Of a stretch of DNA of 43,461 nt, positions 5,406 to 43,461 are shown piece by piece; position 1 is the stretch's first letter, and every line of letters begins with the position of its first letter. The translations under genes and the position numbers were made by a program. Below the pieces are notes generated by a model that worked only from the letters and a program-made list of their open reading frames with translations, did no database searches and was not told the origin of the DNA. The DNA is from Methanobacteriales archaeon HGW-Methanobacteriales-1. Its GTDB lineage: Archaea; Methanobacteriota; Methanobacteria; Methanobacteriales; Methanobacteriaceae. The stretch is taken from assembly GCA_002839705.1 (NCBI GenBank), contig PGYO01000014.1, positions 1-43,461 on the forward strand, written 5' to 3'.

Positions 5406-5641
5406 TTTTTTTGTTTAGCTTAATTGAATTTCTTAAAGAAATTTAATATATTAAAGAATTAAATATATCATAAGATTATATAAATATTCAAATTTTTTTG
5501 AAATTATGAAATGAACAGTATAATAAATAAATATTTATTGATTAATATAATGAATAACATAATCTGAAATATGTGAACATTAATAAGGATAAAATATAAT
5601 ATAATCACAAGTTTTTTAATATAGTTTAATGGTGAAAAATA

Positions 5642-6163
5642 ATGGTTTTAAGTAGTGCAATGGGTAGTTTACTAAATGGTAAAGACGCATTAATCCTGTT
5701 TTTCGGGATTTATTTAATGATTGTAATGAATTTAATACGTAAATACAGAACATTCGATGTTCAGCTATTTTTTTCAAGTAATGAAAAACGAAGGAATAGA
5801 TTTATCCGTAGATTCATCGTAGGATTCTTTTTAATAGATATTTTTCCCGTGGTATGGCTTTTAATACTTTATGCGTTCATAATTACACCATACCGTGGAC
5901 CATTCCCCATTATGGCCGCAGCATTCGCAGCTTTATCAGTTCTGGGTTTTGTAAAAATATTACATTCAATTATAGCCACCGAAAATCACCTAAAGTTCTA
6001 TTCATCAGACGAATTTCAATATGTGGTTTCCAACTGGGGCCGGGACGATGATGACGACAACACCTTCAAAAGCCATTTTATATCCGGTATTGCTTATCTG
6101 ATATTTTTCGCGTTATTAGCCTATTTAGTAGGTAATATTCCACTTTTAATAGGGGCAGTGTAA
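5642..6163 (+). CDS. Four-helix membrane protein of unknown function
   Basis: 173 residues. Hydrophobic segments lie at about 15-32, 58-82, 88-110 and 145-170. A basic stretch (N-E-K-R-R-N-R-F-I-R-R-F) precedes the second helix and an acidic run (D-D-D-D-D-N) precedes the last one. I do not recognise a family. The start ATG has GGTGA upstream. It stands alone between AT-rich spacers; no partner gene is evident. Confidence 0.7.
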   Translation: MVLSSAMGSLLNGKDALILFFGIYLMIVMNLIRKYRTFDVQLFFSSNEKRRNRFIRRFIVGFFLIDIFPVVWLLILYAFIITPYRGPFPIMAAAFAALSVLGFVKILHSIIATENHLKFYSSDEFQYVVSNWGRDDDDDNTFKSHFISGIAYLIFFALLAYLVGNIPLLIGAV

Positions 6164-7161: not shown

Positions 7162-7929
7162 TCACATTAAGCTTTGTTCTTTCTTGCTAAATATTAATGC
7201 AGATATTAAAATCATTAACACGGCAAAAAAGGCTATTACAATAATGCTTATTTCTAAAGGAAGTGCTGATTCGCCTAAAGTAGCTGCCCTAAGTGCATCC
7301 ACACCATAAGTCAAGGGATTTATATAAACTGCTGTCTGGAGCCATGTTGGCAATCCAGTAATGGGAAACAATGCTCCACTTAAAAGGAACATTGGTAGTA
7401 CAATGAAACTCATTATAAGGTTAAATCCTTCCATACTATCTGTAAAAGCAGCAATAACCAGACCCATGCCCCCAAGTCCCACTGACATGATCAACGCTAT
7501 TATAATACACAGAATGAATGTCAAAGGATTCATAGAGACCCCTACTATGAAAGAAAGAATCAATAAAATAGAAGCTTGAATTACTGATGCTGTACTTATT
7601 CCCAATGCTTTTCCCAGTACAATAGAAGGTCTTGAAATAGGGGCAACCAGTATCTCCTTTAAAAATCCATATTGGCGATCCATAATAACCGAAAGGCCGG
7701 AAAAGATAGATGTAAAAAGAATAGTCTGACCAATTATTCCCGGATAAATAAAGGCCTGATATCCACCAGGTATGTTCCCACCAAATCTTACTGCTGATCC
7801 CAAACCAGTCCCAAATATTATTAGCCATAAAAGTGGAGTTACCACCGAAGTCACAATTCGGGAGCGGTATCTGAAAAATCTCTTGGTTTCTCTTAGCCAG
7901 ATAGTATATATTCCTTCAATTTCTGCCAT
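7162..7929 (-). CDS. ABC-2 type exporter permease, DrrB-like
   Basis: 255 residues with six predicted membrane helices. The N-terminus has the usual amphipathic elbow (W-L-R-E-T-K-R-F-F-R-Y-R-S-R) and the ABC-2 signature region with F-L-S-G-A-L-F-P-I-T-G-L-P lies near 185-197. It forms the membrane channel of the exporter whose ATPase is encoded 76 bases upstream, and would pump a hydrophobic compound such as a drug or lipid. A GGGGGTC ribosome site precedes the ATG. Confidence 0.88.
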   Translation of the reverse strand: MAEIEGIYTIWLRETKRFFRYRSRIVTSVVTPLLWLIIFGTGLGSAVRFGGNIPGGYQAFIYPGIIGQTILFTSIFSGLSVIMDRQYGFLKEILVAPISRPSIVLGKALGISTASVIQASILLILSFIVGVSMNPLTFILCIIIALIMSVGLGGMGLVIAAFTDSMEGFNLIMSFIVLPMFLLSGALFPITGLPTWLQTAVYINPLTYGVDALRAATLGESALPLEISIIVIAFFAVLMILISALIFSKKEQSLM

Positions 7930-37802: not shown

Positions 37803-38012
37803 TTATTGCGTCAATTGTCTGCCAAAGGTGGTTAACTCAAAATCATCATATTCAACAAATCCTAAAGTTTTATAACAATCGATTAAAGGAAGTTTTCGTA
37901 AGCTATTGGGATTTACTCCTGTTTTTTGACCTAAACCAATTAAATAATATTTGAAGTCCAGGCCTAATTTTGTTTTTAACCTGCACCCTTTGAGAACTGG
38001 AACAATAGACAT
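37803..38012 (-). CDS. Short frame of unknown function at the edge of the TPR island
   Basis: 69 codons ending in E-L-T-T-F-G-R-Q-L-T-Q; the centre K-T-L-G-F-V-E-Y-D-D-F looks like a winged-helix or sensor fragment, but I do not recognise it. No ribosome site, and an in-frame stop three codons before the ATG. It may be the remaining 3' part of a larger gene cut by the rearrangements that built the adjacent island. Confidence 0.35.
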   Translation of the reverse strand: MSIVPVLKGCRLKTKLGLDFKYYLIGLGQKTGVNPNSLRKLPLIDCYKTLGFVEYDDFELTTFGRQLTQ

Positions 38013-38046
38013 ACAATATCATTGTTGTTGTGATAAAACACGCCAA

Positions 38047-38926
38047 TTATGGATTGATTTTAGATAAAATGTCTCTTCTAGCATTCACAGCAAGTTCGAA
38101 TCCAGGTTTCAATATTAAAGATTTATCATAGCACTTTAAAGCCTCATCAAATCTTTGAAGTTCAACTAATACCACGCCTTTTAAAAACCACGCATCTCCA
38201 TTCTCAGAATCAATATTCAATGATTTATCCAAACAATCTAATGCCTCAAAATTCTTATCCAATTGAGTAAAAGCTAAACCTTTATTAATATAAGCTGCCA
38301 TCATTAGGATCCAAAATCAATGCTTTATCAAAACAATTCAAAGCTTCATTAAAATTGCCCATTTTTCCCAAAATAGTGCATTTATTATTCCATCCGCCAA
38401 TATTATCTGGATCTAACCTTAAAAATTTATCATAATACTCTAAAGCTTCATCAAACATCTTTAATCTGTCAAAAATCAAAGCCTTAGCGTGTAAAACATT
38501 AGAATTTGAAGGATCAATTGTTAAAGCCTCATCAAACATTCCCAACTCCTTATAAGATAGGCCCTTGCTAAGCCAAGCATAATCACAGAAAGGGCTGATT
38601 TTCAAAGCTTTATCAAAACTCCTTAAAGCCTCATCAAATCTGCCTAGAAGATTAAGAGTATTACCTCTATTAAGCCAACCATCAGAATCTTTAGGCTTCA
38701 ATTCTAAAAATTTATCATAGCACTCTAAAGATTCGTTAAAACTACCTAGTTCACTCAAAAGCCATGCTTTATTGTATAAAGCCGTTGAATTTTCTGGAAT
38801 TAATTCCAAAATTTGATTATAACATCGCAATGCTTCCTTATAATCTCCATATTCCATAAACCTATCTGCTTGGTTAAAATATGATTTAATATTGTTTTTA
38901 TTTTTAAAATGGTTGAAAAGTCCCAT
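38047..38926 (-). pseudogene. Frameshifted TPR protein
   Basis: Read from ATG 38926 (M-G-L-F-N-H-F-K) the frame gives about six TPR units and hits a stop at 38285. The other frame starting near 38304 continues with two more TPR units and the shared end D-I-L-S-K-I-N-P. The full span is 880 bases, 3n+1, so a single extra base near 38298-38299 (GG in place of G) explains the break: removal would read D-P-N-D-A-A-Y-I-N-K. The fourth TPR also lacks about seven residues. The gene is a paralogue of 39153-40154. Confidence 0.8.
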
Positions 38927-38951
38927 GCTAACCACTTGTAGTGTTATTAGT

Positions 38952-39120
38952 TTAATTTCCTTTTTCTTTTTGTTGTAAAGTTTCGACGATTGATTCACCT
39001 AAAGCCCATAAACCTCCAACAACAATTATTGTTGAAGCTCTTATTATATCATTATTTGCCAAAGCAACCCCTAATGCCTGACCTAACAAAGCCGCTTGCA
39101 CCTTAAAATCATCAGGTTTC
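38952..39120 (-). pseudogene. Duplicated 3' fragment of the tip gene at 40156-41109
   Basis: The bases from 38912 to about 39119 match 40140-40347 at roughly 98% (four or five differences). The fragment carries the last 55 codons of that gene (from K-P-D-D-F-K-V-Q-A-A to Q-Q-K-E-K-G-N); a C-to-T change now makes an early stop at 38952-38954. It has no start or ribosome site of its own. The copied block includes the TPR start codon, as if TPR gene plus upstream junction were duplicated together. Confidence 0.85.
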
Positions 39121-39152
39121 TCAAGAAATTGTATTATTAATAAATGAGTTAA

Positions 39153-40154
39153 TTAATTTATTTTTGAAAGAAGTTCTTGCCTAACCATTTTAACCTTTTC
39201 ATTATCAGGGTCTAATTTCAAAGATTTATCAAAACACTTTAATGCATCATCATAACTTTTTAATTCAGATAAGGCTACACCCTTTAAAAAATAGGCATCT
39301 ACATTATCTGGATTAATATTCAATGATTTATCCAAACAATCTAATGCCTCAATGTTCATGTCAAGCTTAATAAAAGATAAACCTTTATTATAATAAGCAT
39401 CCTCATTATTAAAATCAAGTTTCAATACTTTATCAAAGCATTTAAAAGCATCTTCATGCATTCCCATCTTCCCTAAAGTAGCACCTTTATTATTCAATAC
39501 AATAGTATTACCTGAATCAAGTTTTAGAGTTTTATTAAAACACTCTAAAGCCTCATCAAACCTACCTAATTCCCTCAAATCAAAACCTTTATTCATCAAT
39601 CCCATAATATTTTCGGGCTTTAATTCCAAAAATCTATCATAACATTTTAAAGCCTCATCAAACCTACCCAACTCACTAAAAGCCAACCCCTTACTAAGCC
39701 AAACATTAGAATTATTCGGCTCAAACACTAAAGCCTCATCAAAACACACTAAAGCCTTATCAAACCTACCCAACTCACTAAAAGCCAACCCCTTACTAAG
39801 CCAAACATTAGAATTATTCGGCTCAAACACTAAAGCCTCATCAAAACACTTTAAAGCCTCATCAAACCTACCTAAAAGATTAAAGGTGTTTCCTTTACCA
39901 TACCAACCATCAACATCTTTAGGTTTTAATTCCAAAAACATATCATAATACTCTAAAGCCTCATCTAACCTGTTTAAATCGCTTAAAATCCATCCTTTAT
40001 TATATAGTGCCGCAGAATTTCCTGGATCTAAACTTAAAATATGATTATAGCATTTTAAAGCTTCATTATATTTTTTATCATCCATAAACTTGCTTGCACT
40101 ATTAAAATATGAATTAATTCTATTTTTATTTTTTAAACTGTTGAAAAGTCCCAT
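39153..40154 (-). CDS. TPR protein (nine TPR units)
   Basis: 333 residues from ATG 40154 (M-G-L-F-N-S-L-K). Nine 34-residue TPR units with the W/Y-x-x-K-G-x-x-L-x-x-L and A-L-x-x-Y/F-D-x-x-L-x-L-x-P pattern, then a capping helix ending L-L-S-K-I-N. The start lies one base after the stop of the tip gene (TAG-C-ATG), so the two are almost certainly co-translated. Two neighbouring units (bases 39660-39863) are nearly identical at DNA level, a recent internal expansion. The frame is open further upstream, but those codons are antiparallel to nothing conserved and overlap the tip gene. Confidence 0.85.
   Translation of the reverse strand: MGLFNSLKNKNRINSYFNSASKFMDDKKYNEALKCYNHILSLDPGNSAALYNKGWILSDLNRLDEALEYYDMFLELKPKDVDGWYGKGNTFNLLGRFDEALKCFDEALVFEPNNSNVWLSKGLAFSELGRFDKALVCFDEALVFEPNNSNVWLSKGLAFSELGRFDEALKCYDRFLELKPENIMGLMNKGFDLRELGRFDEALECFNKTLKLDSGNTIVLNNKGATLGKMGMHEDAFKCFDKVLKLDFNNEDAYYNKGLSFIKLDMNIEALDCLDKSLNINPDNVDAYFLKGVALSELKSYDDALKCFDKSLKLDPDNEKVKMVRQELLSKIN
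39660..39863 (-). repeat. Tandem 102-base duplication of one TPR unit
   Basis: Two successive 102-base units (39660-39761, 39762-39863); the first 88 bases are identical and the rest nearly so. They encode the repeat beginning S-N-V-W-L-S-K-G-L-A-F-S-E-L-G-R-F-D. Confidence 0.9.
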
Positions 40155-40155
40155 G

Positions 40156-41109
40156 CTAACCACTTGTAGTGTTATTAGTTTGATTTCCTTTTTCTTTTTG
40201 TTGTAAAGTTTCGACGATTGATTCACCTAAAGCCCATAAACCTCCAACAACAATTATTGTTGAAGCCCTTATTATATCATTATTTGCCAAAGCAACACCT
40301 AATGCCTGACCTAACAAAGCCGCTTGCACCTTAAAATCATCAGGCTTCTTCTTTGGAGAAGGACTATTTTGTATTTTTTCTAAATCTTTTAATCGGCCAG
40401 TATGATACTCAACTTCAATCTGTTTTTTAGTTTTTCCCATTAAGTAGTAACCTGCATCCCAGCATGCATTTCCAATTTCTGCGAGTTTTGGTGATTCTTT
40501 ATCGTATAAAAATTGATTTATCAAACCAAAACTTAGTGGAAATGCATTGCCCAGTATTTGCCTAGCTTGTTCTGGAGGTAACCATCCATATTTATCACAT
40601 AAATAATTACCCACCACAAAAGTAGATATACCTACCCCAATAAGTGCTGCAGTAAGTGGATTTCTAGCAAACCTTGTTAAACCAGCCAAAGCATCTGCAG
40701 CAGGTCCACTAACACCCACTGATGTAAAAAACGATGAAAGACTAGCAAGTCCCGGGAAACTAGCACCAGGAGCAAATACATTAAGGCCCATAGCCAACGA
40801 TGGAATAGAACCCATCCAAGGAATATTTAAAGGATTATTAAGCAAATCCTCAGCCAAATCAAAGGCCCATTCTGCTTGCTGGTCAGAATAACAATAACTA
40901 CCAGAAATAGTAGAATTCATAATCATGATATCTCTTAAAATACCAGTTTCAGGATCCAAAACCAAAAACAACGTATTATCACCCGATTTCATCACCAGAT
41001 AACCATCACTCATAAACATATCAGGCATTTGACCATTAAAAATCAGCTGACCCAAACCCATAACAATAGAAGTATTATTATCACCAGGGAATAATGATTC
41101 TCCAACCAT
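40156..41109 (-). CDS. Truncated membrane-tip protein with CD-x-x-GWLPPE motif (probable displaced cassette)
   Basis: 317 residues from the first ATG, but the reading frame is open and protein-like for 15 codons more (Y-A-C-S-A-A-I-N-P-L-E-H, 41110-41154) up to an in-frame stop, and no ribosome site is present. It looks like the 3' part of a longer gene. A hydrophobic segment (R-N-P-L-T-A-A-L-I-G-V-G-I-S-T-F-V-V) is followed by C-D-K-Y-G-W-L-P-P-E-Q-A-R-Q-I-L-G-N-A-F-P, then a variable end with another hydrophobic stretch. The partial gene at 42952 has the same motif and a different end. Its stop is one base from the next TPR start. Confidence 0.65.
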   Translation of the reverse strand: MVGESLFPGDNNTSIVMGLGQLIFNGQMPDMFMSDGYLVMKSGDNTLFLVLDPETGILRDIMIMNSTISGSYCYSDQQAEWAFDLAEDLLNNPLNIPWMGSIPSLAMGLNVFAPGASFPGLASLSSFFTSVGVSGPAADALAGLTRFARNPLTAALIGVGISTFVVGNYLCDKYGWLPPEQARQILGNAFPLSFGLINQFLYDKESPKLAEIGNACWDAGYYLMGKTKKQIEVEYHTGRLKDLEKIQNSPSPKKKPDDFKVQAALLGQALGVALANNDIIRASTIIVVGGLWALGESIVETLQQKEKGNQTNNTTSG

Positions 41110-41192
41110 ATGCTCAAGCGGATTAATCGCAGCCGAACAAGCATAACGGAACTCTTAACTACTGGTTGTGATAATTCTAAGTAGCACACCAA

Positions 41193-42842
41193 TTAATTTA
41201 TTTTAGATAAAATATCCGATTTAGCTTTTTTAGCAGGTTCAAAATCAGGTTTTAATTCTAAAGCTTTTTCATAGCAGACTAATGCCTCTTGAAAATTTCC
41301 AATTTTCTCCAAGCTGAAACCCTTTCCATACCATCCATCAACACAACTTGGATTTATTTCTATTGATTTTTCAAAAGACTCTAAAGCTTTTTGATGCATT
41401 TTAAGGTCGTTAAGTACATATCCCCGGTTATGCCATGCACCAGCATGATTTTTATCTTTTTCTAGAACATTTTCATAAGATTCTAAAGCTTCCTGATACT
41501 TACCCATATTGGCCAAAACATGCCCAATATTATACCAAGCTTCAGCAGAATTATTATTTATCTTTAAAACTTTTTTAAAACATTTTAAAGATTCTTCATA
41601 TCGTTTTAAACATGATAAAGCAAATCCTTTATAAAAGTAAGCTGCTTCATTCGTTGAATCTGATTGTAAAACTTTATCAAAACAAATTATGGCTTCTTGA
41701 TATTTGCCAATGATTCCAAGAGCATTTCCTTTATTTAACCAGATAGCGTCAATGTTAGGGTCAAGCTCTAAAGCTTTTTCATAACATTCTATCTCTTCAA
41801 TTGGCATTTCAAGAACTTTATAAACAATACTCTTTCCAAGCCATGCATCAAAATATTTTGGATCCAATTCCAAAGATTTTTCATAACATTTTAAAGCTTC
41901 TTGATGTTTTCCCAGCTTTGATAACATGTGACCCTTACTAAACCATGCTTTAAAATTTTTTGGATCTATCTCCAAAACTTCATTATAACAAGTTAATGCT
42001 TCCTGATTTTTACCAAGTTCTTCTAAAATTAAGCCCTTACGACATCGTGCCTTGATAGTCTGAGGATCTAATTCTAAAAGATTATTATAACAAGTTAATG
42101 CTTCCTGATACTTTCCCAATACGATTAATACATGAGCCTTGTTATATAATGTCTTCGTAGGTTTCATATCTATTTCCATATCTTTTGAAAATCTACGGTT
42201 TTTAACGCCCCTAAAATATATTTCAAGAACTTTATCATAAGATTCTAGCGCCTCTGGATGTCTTCCAAATTTTACAAGAAGATTTCCACGATTATTCCAT
42301 GCATCCATAATATTTCGATCTATTTTCAAAGCATTATCATAAGCTTCTAAAGCATCTTCATATTTACCAAGTTTGTTTAAAACTACTCCTTTACTAATCC
42401 AAGCACTAAATCTTTTTGGATCCATTTTTAGAACATCATCATAAACTTCTAACGCTTCTTTATACTTCTCAACTTTTATAAAAATATTCCCTTTATTATG
42501 CAATGGATTAACATATTTCGAATCCAACTCTAAAGCATTATCATAAGCTTCTAAAGCATCTTCATATTTACCCAGTTCTTCTAAAATCACGCCATTATTA
42601 TTCCAAGCATCAGTATTATTTGGATCCAATTTTAAAGACATTTCATTGGCTTGTAAAGCCCCATGATATTTTTTTAATTTTATTAAAACTTTCCCCTTCC
42701 CATACCATGCAATGCTATGCTTTGGATCTGTTTTTAAAACAGCATCATAAACTTCTAAGGATTCATAATACTTACCCTGCTTAAATAGCTTATTGGCCTT
42801 ACTAATAAGTGATTTTTTATTAGATTTGTTGAATATGCCTAT
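41193..42842 (-). CDS. TPR protein (fifteen TPR units); probable AUA start
   Basis: 549 residues from ATA at 42842. Fifteen TPR units of about 34 residues, with a 13-residue insert (F-R-G-V-K-N-R-R-F-S) after the sixth, and the same D-I-L-S-K-I-N end as its paralogues. The N-terminus read from ATA is (M)-G-I-F-N-K-S-N-K-K, matching the M-G-L-F-N of the other two TPR genes; GGAGG is seven bases upstream. The first ATG (42641) would lose two TPR units. It follows a tip gene by 109 bases. TPR solenoids bind partner proteins; a role as partner or immunity protein of the upstream tip is inferred from gene pairing. Confidence 0.85.
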   Translation of the reverse strand: MGIFNKSNKKSLISKANKLFKQGKYYESLEVYDAVLKTDPKHSIAWYGKGKVLIKLKKYHGALQANEMSLKLDPNNTDAWNNNGVILEELGKYEDALEAYDNALELDSKYVNPLHNKGNIFIKVEKYKEALEVYDDVLKMDPKRFSAWISKGVVLNKLGKYEDALEAYDNALKIDRNIMDAWNNRGNLLVKFGRHPEALESYDKVLEIYFRGVKNRRFSKDMEIDMKPTKTLYNKAHVLIVLGKYQEALTCYNNLLELDPQTIKARCRKGLILEELGKNQEALTCYNEVLEIDPKNFKAWFSKGHMLSKLGKHQEALKCYEKSLELDPKYFDAWLGKSIVYKVLEMPIEEIECYEKALELDPNIDAIWLNKGNALGIIGKYQEAIICFDKVLQSDSTNEAAYFYKGFALSCLKRYEESLKCFKKVLKINNNSAEAWYNIGHVLANMGKYQEALESYENVLEKDKNHAGAWHNRGYVLNDLKMHQKALESFEKSIEINPSCVDGWYGKGFSLEKIGNFQEALVCYEKALELKPDFEPAKKAKSDILSKIN

Positions 42843-42856
42843 TTTAGAACCTCCTT
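42840..42856 (-). promoter_or_regulatory. Strong ribosome-binding site in front of an AUA start
   Basis: On the minus strand AAGGAGG (42856-42850), seven bases TTCTAAA, then ATA (42842-42840), the first codon of the fifteen-TPR gene. Spacing is identical to the sites at 25744 and 31769. Confidence 0.75.
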
Positions 42857-42951
42857 AATCAAATAATTCATATAAATATATATAAAATTTGTTGATATTG
42901 ACCATATATCAATAAATAATACTTCTCTTCAGATAATGAATTATGAAATCC

Positions 42952-43461
42952 TCAGGGAAAAGCCATCTTAAGAAAACAAGCAACATAAATCTGTAAAATA
43001 GATATAGATAGATCTGCAGATGCACCTTCCCAATTTCCAGTTTTAAGCTTATCTGCTGCCCTAGCGAATCCTTCACCCGCTTTTCTTGAAAGAGTATTTA
43101 TGGCTATGCCTGCCTCATCATACTTATCATCACCTTCTTTGTCTCCGATATTCGCTACTAATGTTATCATTTCTTGTAGTTGTTCTGCATTTCGCATTGT
43201 TTGAATACTTCCACGTTTAAAGTGGTTCTGCAATTCATCCGCACTCTCTGGATTAATACCCTTTTCATTAAAATAACGTGGCCAATTTGAAGGATTATAA
43301 TTACTTAAATCAAATTTAAGTGATTGATCATCATAATAGATCATATTTATAATACTAAAAACTGGAAATGCATTTCCTAGTATTTCACGGCATCTTTCCG
43401 GAGGTAACCAACCCTGTTGATCACAATAATAAAATATCGCACACCCAGTAAATACACCCCC
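42952..43461 (-). CDS. Membrane-tip protein with CD-x-x-GWLPPE motif, N-terminus beyond the window
   Basis: The frame is open from the window edge; 169 codons are visible. It reads G-V-F-T-G-C-A-I-F-Y-Y-C-D-Q-Q-G-W-L-P-P-E, then I-L-G-N-A-F-P-V-F, matching the motif region of the protein at 40156-41109. After I-I-N-M-I-Y-Y-D-D the two diverge: this one has E-L-Q-N-H-F-K-R-G, G-E-G-F-A-R-A-A-D-K-L and a hydrophobic end Y-V-A-C-F-L-K-M-A-F-P. An internal ATG at 43344 is not the likely start because the conserved part lies upstream. The downstream TPR gene is probably its partner. Confidence 0.7.
   Translation of the reverse strand, partial: GGVFTGCAIFYYCDQQGWLPPERCREILGNAFPVFSIINMIYYDDQSLKFDLSNYNPSNWPRYFNEKGINPESADELQNHFKRGSIQTMRNAEQLQEMITLVANIGDKEGDDKYDEAGIAINTLSRKAGEGFARAADKLKTGNWEGASADLSISILQIYVACFLKMAFP

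Follow-up and report, generated by a model that had tools for sequence, protein, structure and literature searches.

What is encoded by the repeated pairs of a short, variable "tip" gene and a tetratricopeptide repeat (TPR) gene at one end of contig PGYO01000014.1 of Methanobacteriales archaeon HGW-Methanobacteriales-1, and why are the tips almost always followed by a partner? The window analysed here is this whole contig (C14; 43,461 bp) of a Methanobacteriaceae genome. The locus is transcribed on the minus strand in the order T1, TPR1, T2, TPR2, T3 remnant and TPR3, and the three tip/TPR units reported in a preliminary description are all present, with correct coordinates. That description also proposed a toxin/immunity locus; the modular exchange of tips with their partners and the architecture of such a locus are seen here, whereas toxicity and immunity are roles that we infer. 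It is fairly probable that the units belong to a polymorphic-toxin-like system in which the tips are membrane-active and TPR or transmembrane (TM) partners confer immunity.

The first tip gene, T1 (42952–43461, minus strand), has the extent previously described, but position 43461 is the contig edge and not the limit of the gene, which continues in a second contig, C17. A genome search with T2 matches its N-terminal part to the end of C17, where an open frame of 1,364 aa (L014 4787–8878) encodes a signal peptide (MVMFKRVLLLVFVFLSFFVFLGDVSA), pseudomurein-binding repeats (PMBR), a CHB_HEX_C domain and a parallel beta-helix, followed by a constant domain of ~240 aa. The locus lies on a single contig (L015/L043) in nzgw21, a Methanobacteriaceae metagenome-assembled genome of the same genus. 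The genes upstream of the C17 frame are 93–98% identical to those of nzgw21 and lead into the same secreted gene, beyond which T1, TPR1, T2, TPR2, the T3 remnant and TPR3 follow in nzgw21 as they do in the window. Because of this synteny on one contig, C17 and C14 are taken to carry the two putative ends of a single gene, ~100 codons of which are missing from the assembly, and T1 to be the 3′ end of this main secreted gene. The large secreted N-terminus that had been sought beyond 43461 is thus accounted for, and a large exported N-terminal region with a stalk is a feature of polymorphic toxin systems. A housekeeping membrane protein is ruled out, as the tip gene forms the 3′ part of a gene for a large, secreted surface protein, the C-terminus of which varies in many relatives. 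The main gene of nzgw21 is split by a frame break (L043 9457–12186 and 12408–17414); this break and those in TPR3 are possible sequencing errors, and several of the genomes are draft assemblies.

The constant part of T1 leads to an LGNAFP motif, after which the variable tip occupies ~43369–42955 (minus strand). The boundary motif, CDxxGWLPPE..ILGNAFP (43363–43432, minus strand), marks the switch from constant to variable sequence, and is identified both as a repeat and by a jump in identity to nzgw21. T1 and T2 have in common a hydrophobic stretch and GWLPPE..ILGNAFP and diverge right after the motif, as had been noticed at the outset; the common segment spans 70 nt, and the T2 copy (40537–40606, minus strand) has 76% nucleotide identity to that of T1. 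T2 itself (40156–41109, minus strand; 317 aa, variable part ~40540–40159) is a displaced tip cassette. Its likeness to the constant domain extends to ~41157, through a stop, and T2 is therefore a 5′-truncated copy, in agreement with its first description.

The swap boundary at LGNAFP is sharp. Within nzgw21, T2 matches the main gene at 99.0% identity along the 624 bp up to LGNAFP and at ~50% beyond it, and window T1 is ~63% identical to the nzgw21 main gene before LGNAFP and 98–100% after. These 624 bp stopping at the motif, together with the recurrence of the arrangement in other genera and families, exclude chance. The third unit is reduced to T3 (approximately 38952–39122, minus strand), a 55-codon remnant of a T2-like tip end (97% identity to the C-terminal 64 residues of T2), and to TPR3 (~38047–38926, minus strand), a partner remaining after tip loss. 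Both the remnant and the frameshift in its TPR gene had been recognised earlier: compared with the intact 300-aa nzgw21 copy, which also stands beside a mere tip remnant, TPR3 has lost 21 bp near 38536 and 2 bp near 38287, the latter loss shifting the frame.

Tips and partners have moved together. Synonymous divergence (dS) between the window and nzgw21 is 0.015 for the variable part of T1, 0.029 for TPR1, 0.038 for the variable part of T2, 0.045 for TPR2 and 0.028 for the start of TPR3. The corresponding value is 0.20 for the constant part of T2 and 0.33 for the N-terminus of the main gene, and flanking genes have values of 0.13 and 0.30 on one side and 0.27 and 0.34 on the other. The variable ends and TPR genes trace back to an ancestor far younger than that of the sequence around them, which is what exchange as units would produce, and the diverged flanks on the same contigs argue against contamination as the source of the low values. 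Such joint recombination of tip and partner is typical of polymorphic toxins. The sister genomes also differ by gain or loss of a cassette, nzgw21 being 3.9 kb longer at a junction in the window (37992–37993) and containing there a fourth tip, T4 (520 aa), as well as TPR4, TPR5 and the 5′ portion of a gene for a 130-aa protein.

Relationships along the main gene are similarly uneven. The C17 frame is 67% identical over 1,360 aa to its counterpart in G008, a relative in genus g9, and 42% identical to that of the sister nzgw21 (residues 531–1362), though 89% in the first 280 residues. The T1-type tip is part of the main gene in the window genome and a displaced cassette in G008, with homologous TPR genes downstream in both. 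Horizontal transfer of this tip from genus g9 is not claimed, the tips being 77% identical against 89% for a housekeeping control; it is in the position of the tip that the two genomes differ. In G008 the assembly is N-masked exactly at the constant/tip junctions of the main gene and the displaced cassette (L057, G008:C7, ~5507–5780 and ~7340–7640), as expected for collapsed repeats.

The constant domain is present in 101 of 152 Methanobacteriota genomes (G149, G021, G026 and G139 among them), and in an alignment of 22 sequences some D, W, R, P, S and E residues are invariant. Profile searches with it against Pfam, NCBIfam and PDB return noise only (best PDB E-value 0.2). Readable tips, including those of other genera and families, have a co-directed partner gene downstream, and in many relatives the C-terminal tip varies among otherwise homologous proteins. 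Displaced cassettes without an export signal are found in the window, nzgw21, G008, G044, G031 and Methanothermobacter; these spare tips have no signal peptide, and displaced tip/partner cassettes with orphan partner genes are, like the variable C-termini, characteristic of polymorphic toxins. Beyond Methanobacteriota, searches covered viral, phage, plasmid and PDB collections. No homologues are found in the IMG/VR, phage or plasmid records, and phage or plasmid cargo is rejected as a description of the locus.

The linkage of tip and TPR genes across methanogens had been named beforehand as a point on which the proposed partnership could be refuted. Tips of the TPR class do have TPR genes beside them in other genera, and also in Methanothermobacter, where a 316-aa tip accompanies a 403-aa TPR protein (L102), but most tips carry membrane-protein partners. 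An open reading frame (ORF) lies downstream of 69 tips that are 150 aa or longer, and encodes a TPR protein in 17 instances, a small TM protein in 36 and a polytopic TM protein (at least 190 aa) in 15, with TM segments taken from simple hydropathy counts; a single partner is neither (L152, 49 aa). When tips are clustered by their last 120 residues (single-linkage on whole tips lumps nearly all of them via a shared linker), the clusters are homogeneous for partner type (TPR versus non-TPR) with a purity of 0.984, which none of 2,000 shuffles reaches, although 29 tips fall in one cluster and relatedness makes the shuffle figure overstate independence. The only mismatch in the TPR class (L135, 83 aa) probably represents a TPR gene cut short. 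The TPR-class tips of Methanothermobacter, of Methanobrevibacter-like genomes and of the window genus fall into distinct clusters by tail, and in every one of these the partners are TPR proteins. Within the TPR class, tip and partner similarity are correlated (r=0.78; n=14, near-duplicates removed), and the partial Mantel correlation is 0.77 when the constant domain is controlled for (0 of 2,000); in class C the partial correlation is weak (0.31; 1 of 2,000). A dedicated downstream gene specific to the tip type is again what polymorphic toxin systems contain.

How might such a locus work? Most tips have one to three hydrophobic stretches, and these together with the predominance of membrane-protein partners indicate that the tips are probably membrane-active. 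The TPR partners have no signal peptide and should therefore act on the cytoplasmic face. In the mechanism we propose, a Sec-exported stalk protein bound to pseudomurein would display the ~240-aa constant domain and a variable hydrophobic tip, and the gene directly downstream would encode the cognate protector of the producer. Tips of one class would be matched by TPR solenoids in the cytoplasm, and all other tips by membrane proteins, either small or polytopic. The units farther along, which lack a signal peptide, would serve as a reserve of tips and partners; recombination within the constant domain could reload the main gene from this reserve, leaving behind orphan immunity genes such as TPR3. 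By analogy with the orphan modules of bacterial contact-dependent inhibition (PMC3150448), the tips may be toxic and membrane-acting, may enter or contact cells nearby, and may be neutralised by the partner. The wider proposal is evenly poised: a phylum-wide contact-dependent antagonism in pseudomurein-walled archaea, from Methanothermobacter to gut Methanobrevibacter, with its own delivery protein and constant domain, new families of membrane-active toxins and one class with TPR-solenoid immunity exchanged together with the tips.

Several observations weigh against a toxin/immunity role. Neither tips nor partners match toxin or immunity families in Pfam or NCBIfam; the tips had been described as unrecognised, and profile searches in these databases leave them so, although membership of a known toxin family is not a strict requirement and novel toxins occur. 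The TPR matches in Pfam and in PADLOC are to generic repeats, and a PADLOC search for anti-phage defence gives generic TPR-type matches only. No processing activity is recognised in the constant domain, and AlphaFold prediction of the constant domain with the T1 tip (five sequences; predicted local distance difference test score 35) is uninformative, such that the model is not used. In the polytopic class, co-divergence of tip and partner is no greater than what the constant domain itself shows (partial r=0.07); a claim of co-divergence there is dropped, the signal disappearing with that control. Finally, in the portion of the Zhang 2012 catalogue consulted (PMC3482391), TPRs occur as fusions to other immunity domains and no stand-alone TPR immunity family is listed.

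The organisation resembles that of the bacterial contact-dependent inhibition (CDI) and Rhs systems (Poole 2011, PMC3150448), with a large secreted stalk protein, a sharp boundary motif (VENN there, LGNAFP here), a partner directly downstream of the tip, displaced modules without start or export signals, orphan partners and inter-strain exchange of modules. In CDI orphan modules, orphan tips without start signals are described, an orphan immunity gene is expressed and exchange occurs at a conserved motif (PMC3150448). However, no CdiA, CdiB, Rhs or other known delivery domain is present here; CdiA/TpsA and RHS domains and the VENN motif are not found, and the domains recognised are PMBR, CHB_HEX_C/Fn3-like and beta-helix. 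The stalk is instead an archaeal pseudomurein-binding beta-helix protein, the partners are TPR solenoids or membrane proteins, and the toxin role is a proposed one. The excerpts of the Zhang 2012 catalogue available (PMC3482391) describe polymorphic toxins as generally absent from most archaea, with few exceptions among which this locus family is not named; they share its modular logic and contain precedents in two-helix membrane toxins (the pore-forming Tox-WTIP) and in the two-TM immunity proteins Imm17 and Imm-CdiI.

The nearest described archaeal analogue is VARTIG of Thermococcales (PMC8416519), a hypervariable module in which a surface protein with a recombining C-terminus is accompanied by downstream genes, some encoding subfamily-specific membrane proteins; its authors found no counterpart of it beyond Thermococcales. 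VARTIG is based on immunoglobulin (Ig) domains, unlike the beta-helix/PMBR stalk, different constant domain and TPR partners here, and no match to Ig domains, including the VARTIG C-terminal hypervariable Ig domain (arCOG07710), is found in the tips or constant domain. The adhesin-like proteins of Methanobrevibacter and Methanosphaera have a signal peptide or membrane anchor, a beta-helix and Ig-like/PMBR stalks resembling those here; in the sections of that work seen (PMC11532034) they are described as adhesins, and the logic of constant domain, variable tip and partner is not reported. The locus is filed as polymorphic-toxin-like and as a member of neither CDI, Rhs nor VARTIG. Polymorphic toxin systems have reportedly been predicted in many archaea by Makarova et al. 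(mBio, 2019), according to papers that cite that work. Searches of the literature for polymorphic toxins in Methanobacteria, which did not extend to the text of that paper, gave nothing on this locus family.

The main rival is a surface receptor or adhesin, diversified by recombination for kin or partner recognition, in which the tip is an anchor in the membrane of the producer and its TPR or TM partner serves as a dedicated cytoplasmic or membrane adaptor for signalling or anchor stability, with no toxin. It is a possible reading though a rather unlikely one. The hydrophobic stretches of the tips could be C-terminal anchors, TPR proteins are frequent as adaptors, other Methanobrevibacter adhesin-like proteins are described as having C-terminal membrane anchors in the part of PMC11532034 available, and the VARTIG authors weighed a recognition role for their similar modular system (PMC8416519). 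Such a receptor does not easily explain the displaced cassettes without a signal peptide, the retention of partner genes after tip loss (TPR3) or the tying of unrelated partner types to tip families.

We regard as improbable a second explanation, in which the partner is a secretion chaperone or assembly factor keeping a hydrophobic C-terminus export-competent and the tip is an effector or anchor. TPR chaperones of hydrophobic clients are well known, and gene order, tight spacing and co-divergence are equally expected for chaperone–client pairs, but partners are kept without tips, and cassettes lacking a signal peptide have no need of a chaperone. Neutral expansion, by which abundant TPR genes came to lie beside decaying adhesin fragments through chance or repeat-driven duplication, would fit the number of TPR genes (44 TPR_12 stretches in the genome) and the decay of T3/TPR3. 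It is very hard to credit, being contradicted by partner-type clustering and TPR-class co-divergence, with TPR genes directly downstream of 17/69 tips, membrane proteins downstream of 51/69, type tracking tip family and the pattern repeated in more than one family of Methanobacteriota.

There is so far very little documentation of antagonism between archaea. If the toxin/immunity reading holds, most Methanobacteriota sampled, with methanogens of the rumen and human gut and a Methanothermobacter among them, would carry an arsenal whose components pass for unnamed surface proteins and generic TPR proteins. The clusters of TPR genes beside adhesin fragments in these genomes would then be accounted for, TPR solenoids would be a novel type of immunity protein, and competition between methanogen strains could be studied directly by experiment.

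The TPR genes of the window have some further features. TPR1 (41193–42842, minus strand), the partner of T1, encodes 549 aa (Pfam TPR_1, E-value 7e-131); these limits follow from an apparent ATA (AUA) start, 6 nt past GGAGGT (42854–42849, within the start region 42854–42840, minus strand), and not the ATG assumed in the ORF list. The sequence GGAGGTxCTAAAATAGGxATATT at this start is kept in nzgw21 and in G008, and a conserved non-canonical start codon would be unusual. TPR2 (39153–40154, minus strand; 333 aa, Pfam TPR), the partner of T2, begins 1 nt past the T2 stop. TPR2 and TPR3 both begin ATGGGACTTTTC (MGLFN), and the TPR3 start in nzgw21 is GTG.

Beyond TPR3, an ORF at 37803–38012 (minus strand) contains a C-terminal remnant (~37803–37985) of the 130-aa protein, which has no Pfam match, is truncated in the window at the junction where the T4 cassette is missing and is intact in nzgw21 (L015 14853–15242). 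In another genome (L058, G021:C1) a class B main gene is broken into frames of 247 and 208 aa with its polytopic partner largely kept. Methanobrevibacter genomes contain a second class of these proteins (L098, L099, L113, L114 and L115), 930–1060 aa long and roughly single-copy in each genome; their tips are of class C (..AxYIS..ETYxYF..) and their TM partner has 63–124 aa. In several species these proteins are encoded upstream of genes that, from reading their sequence, encode NAD synthase and leucyl-tRNA synthetase.

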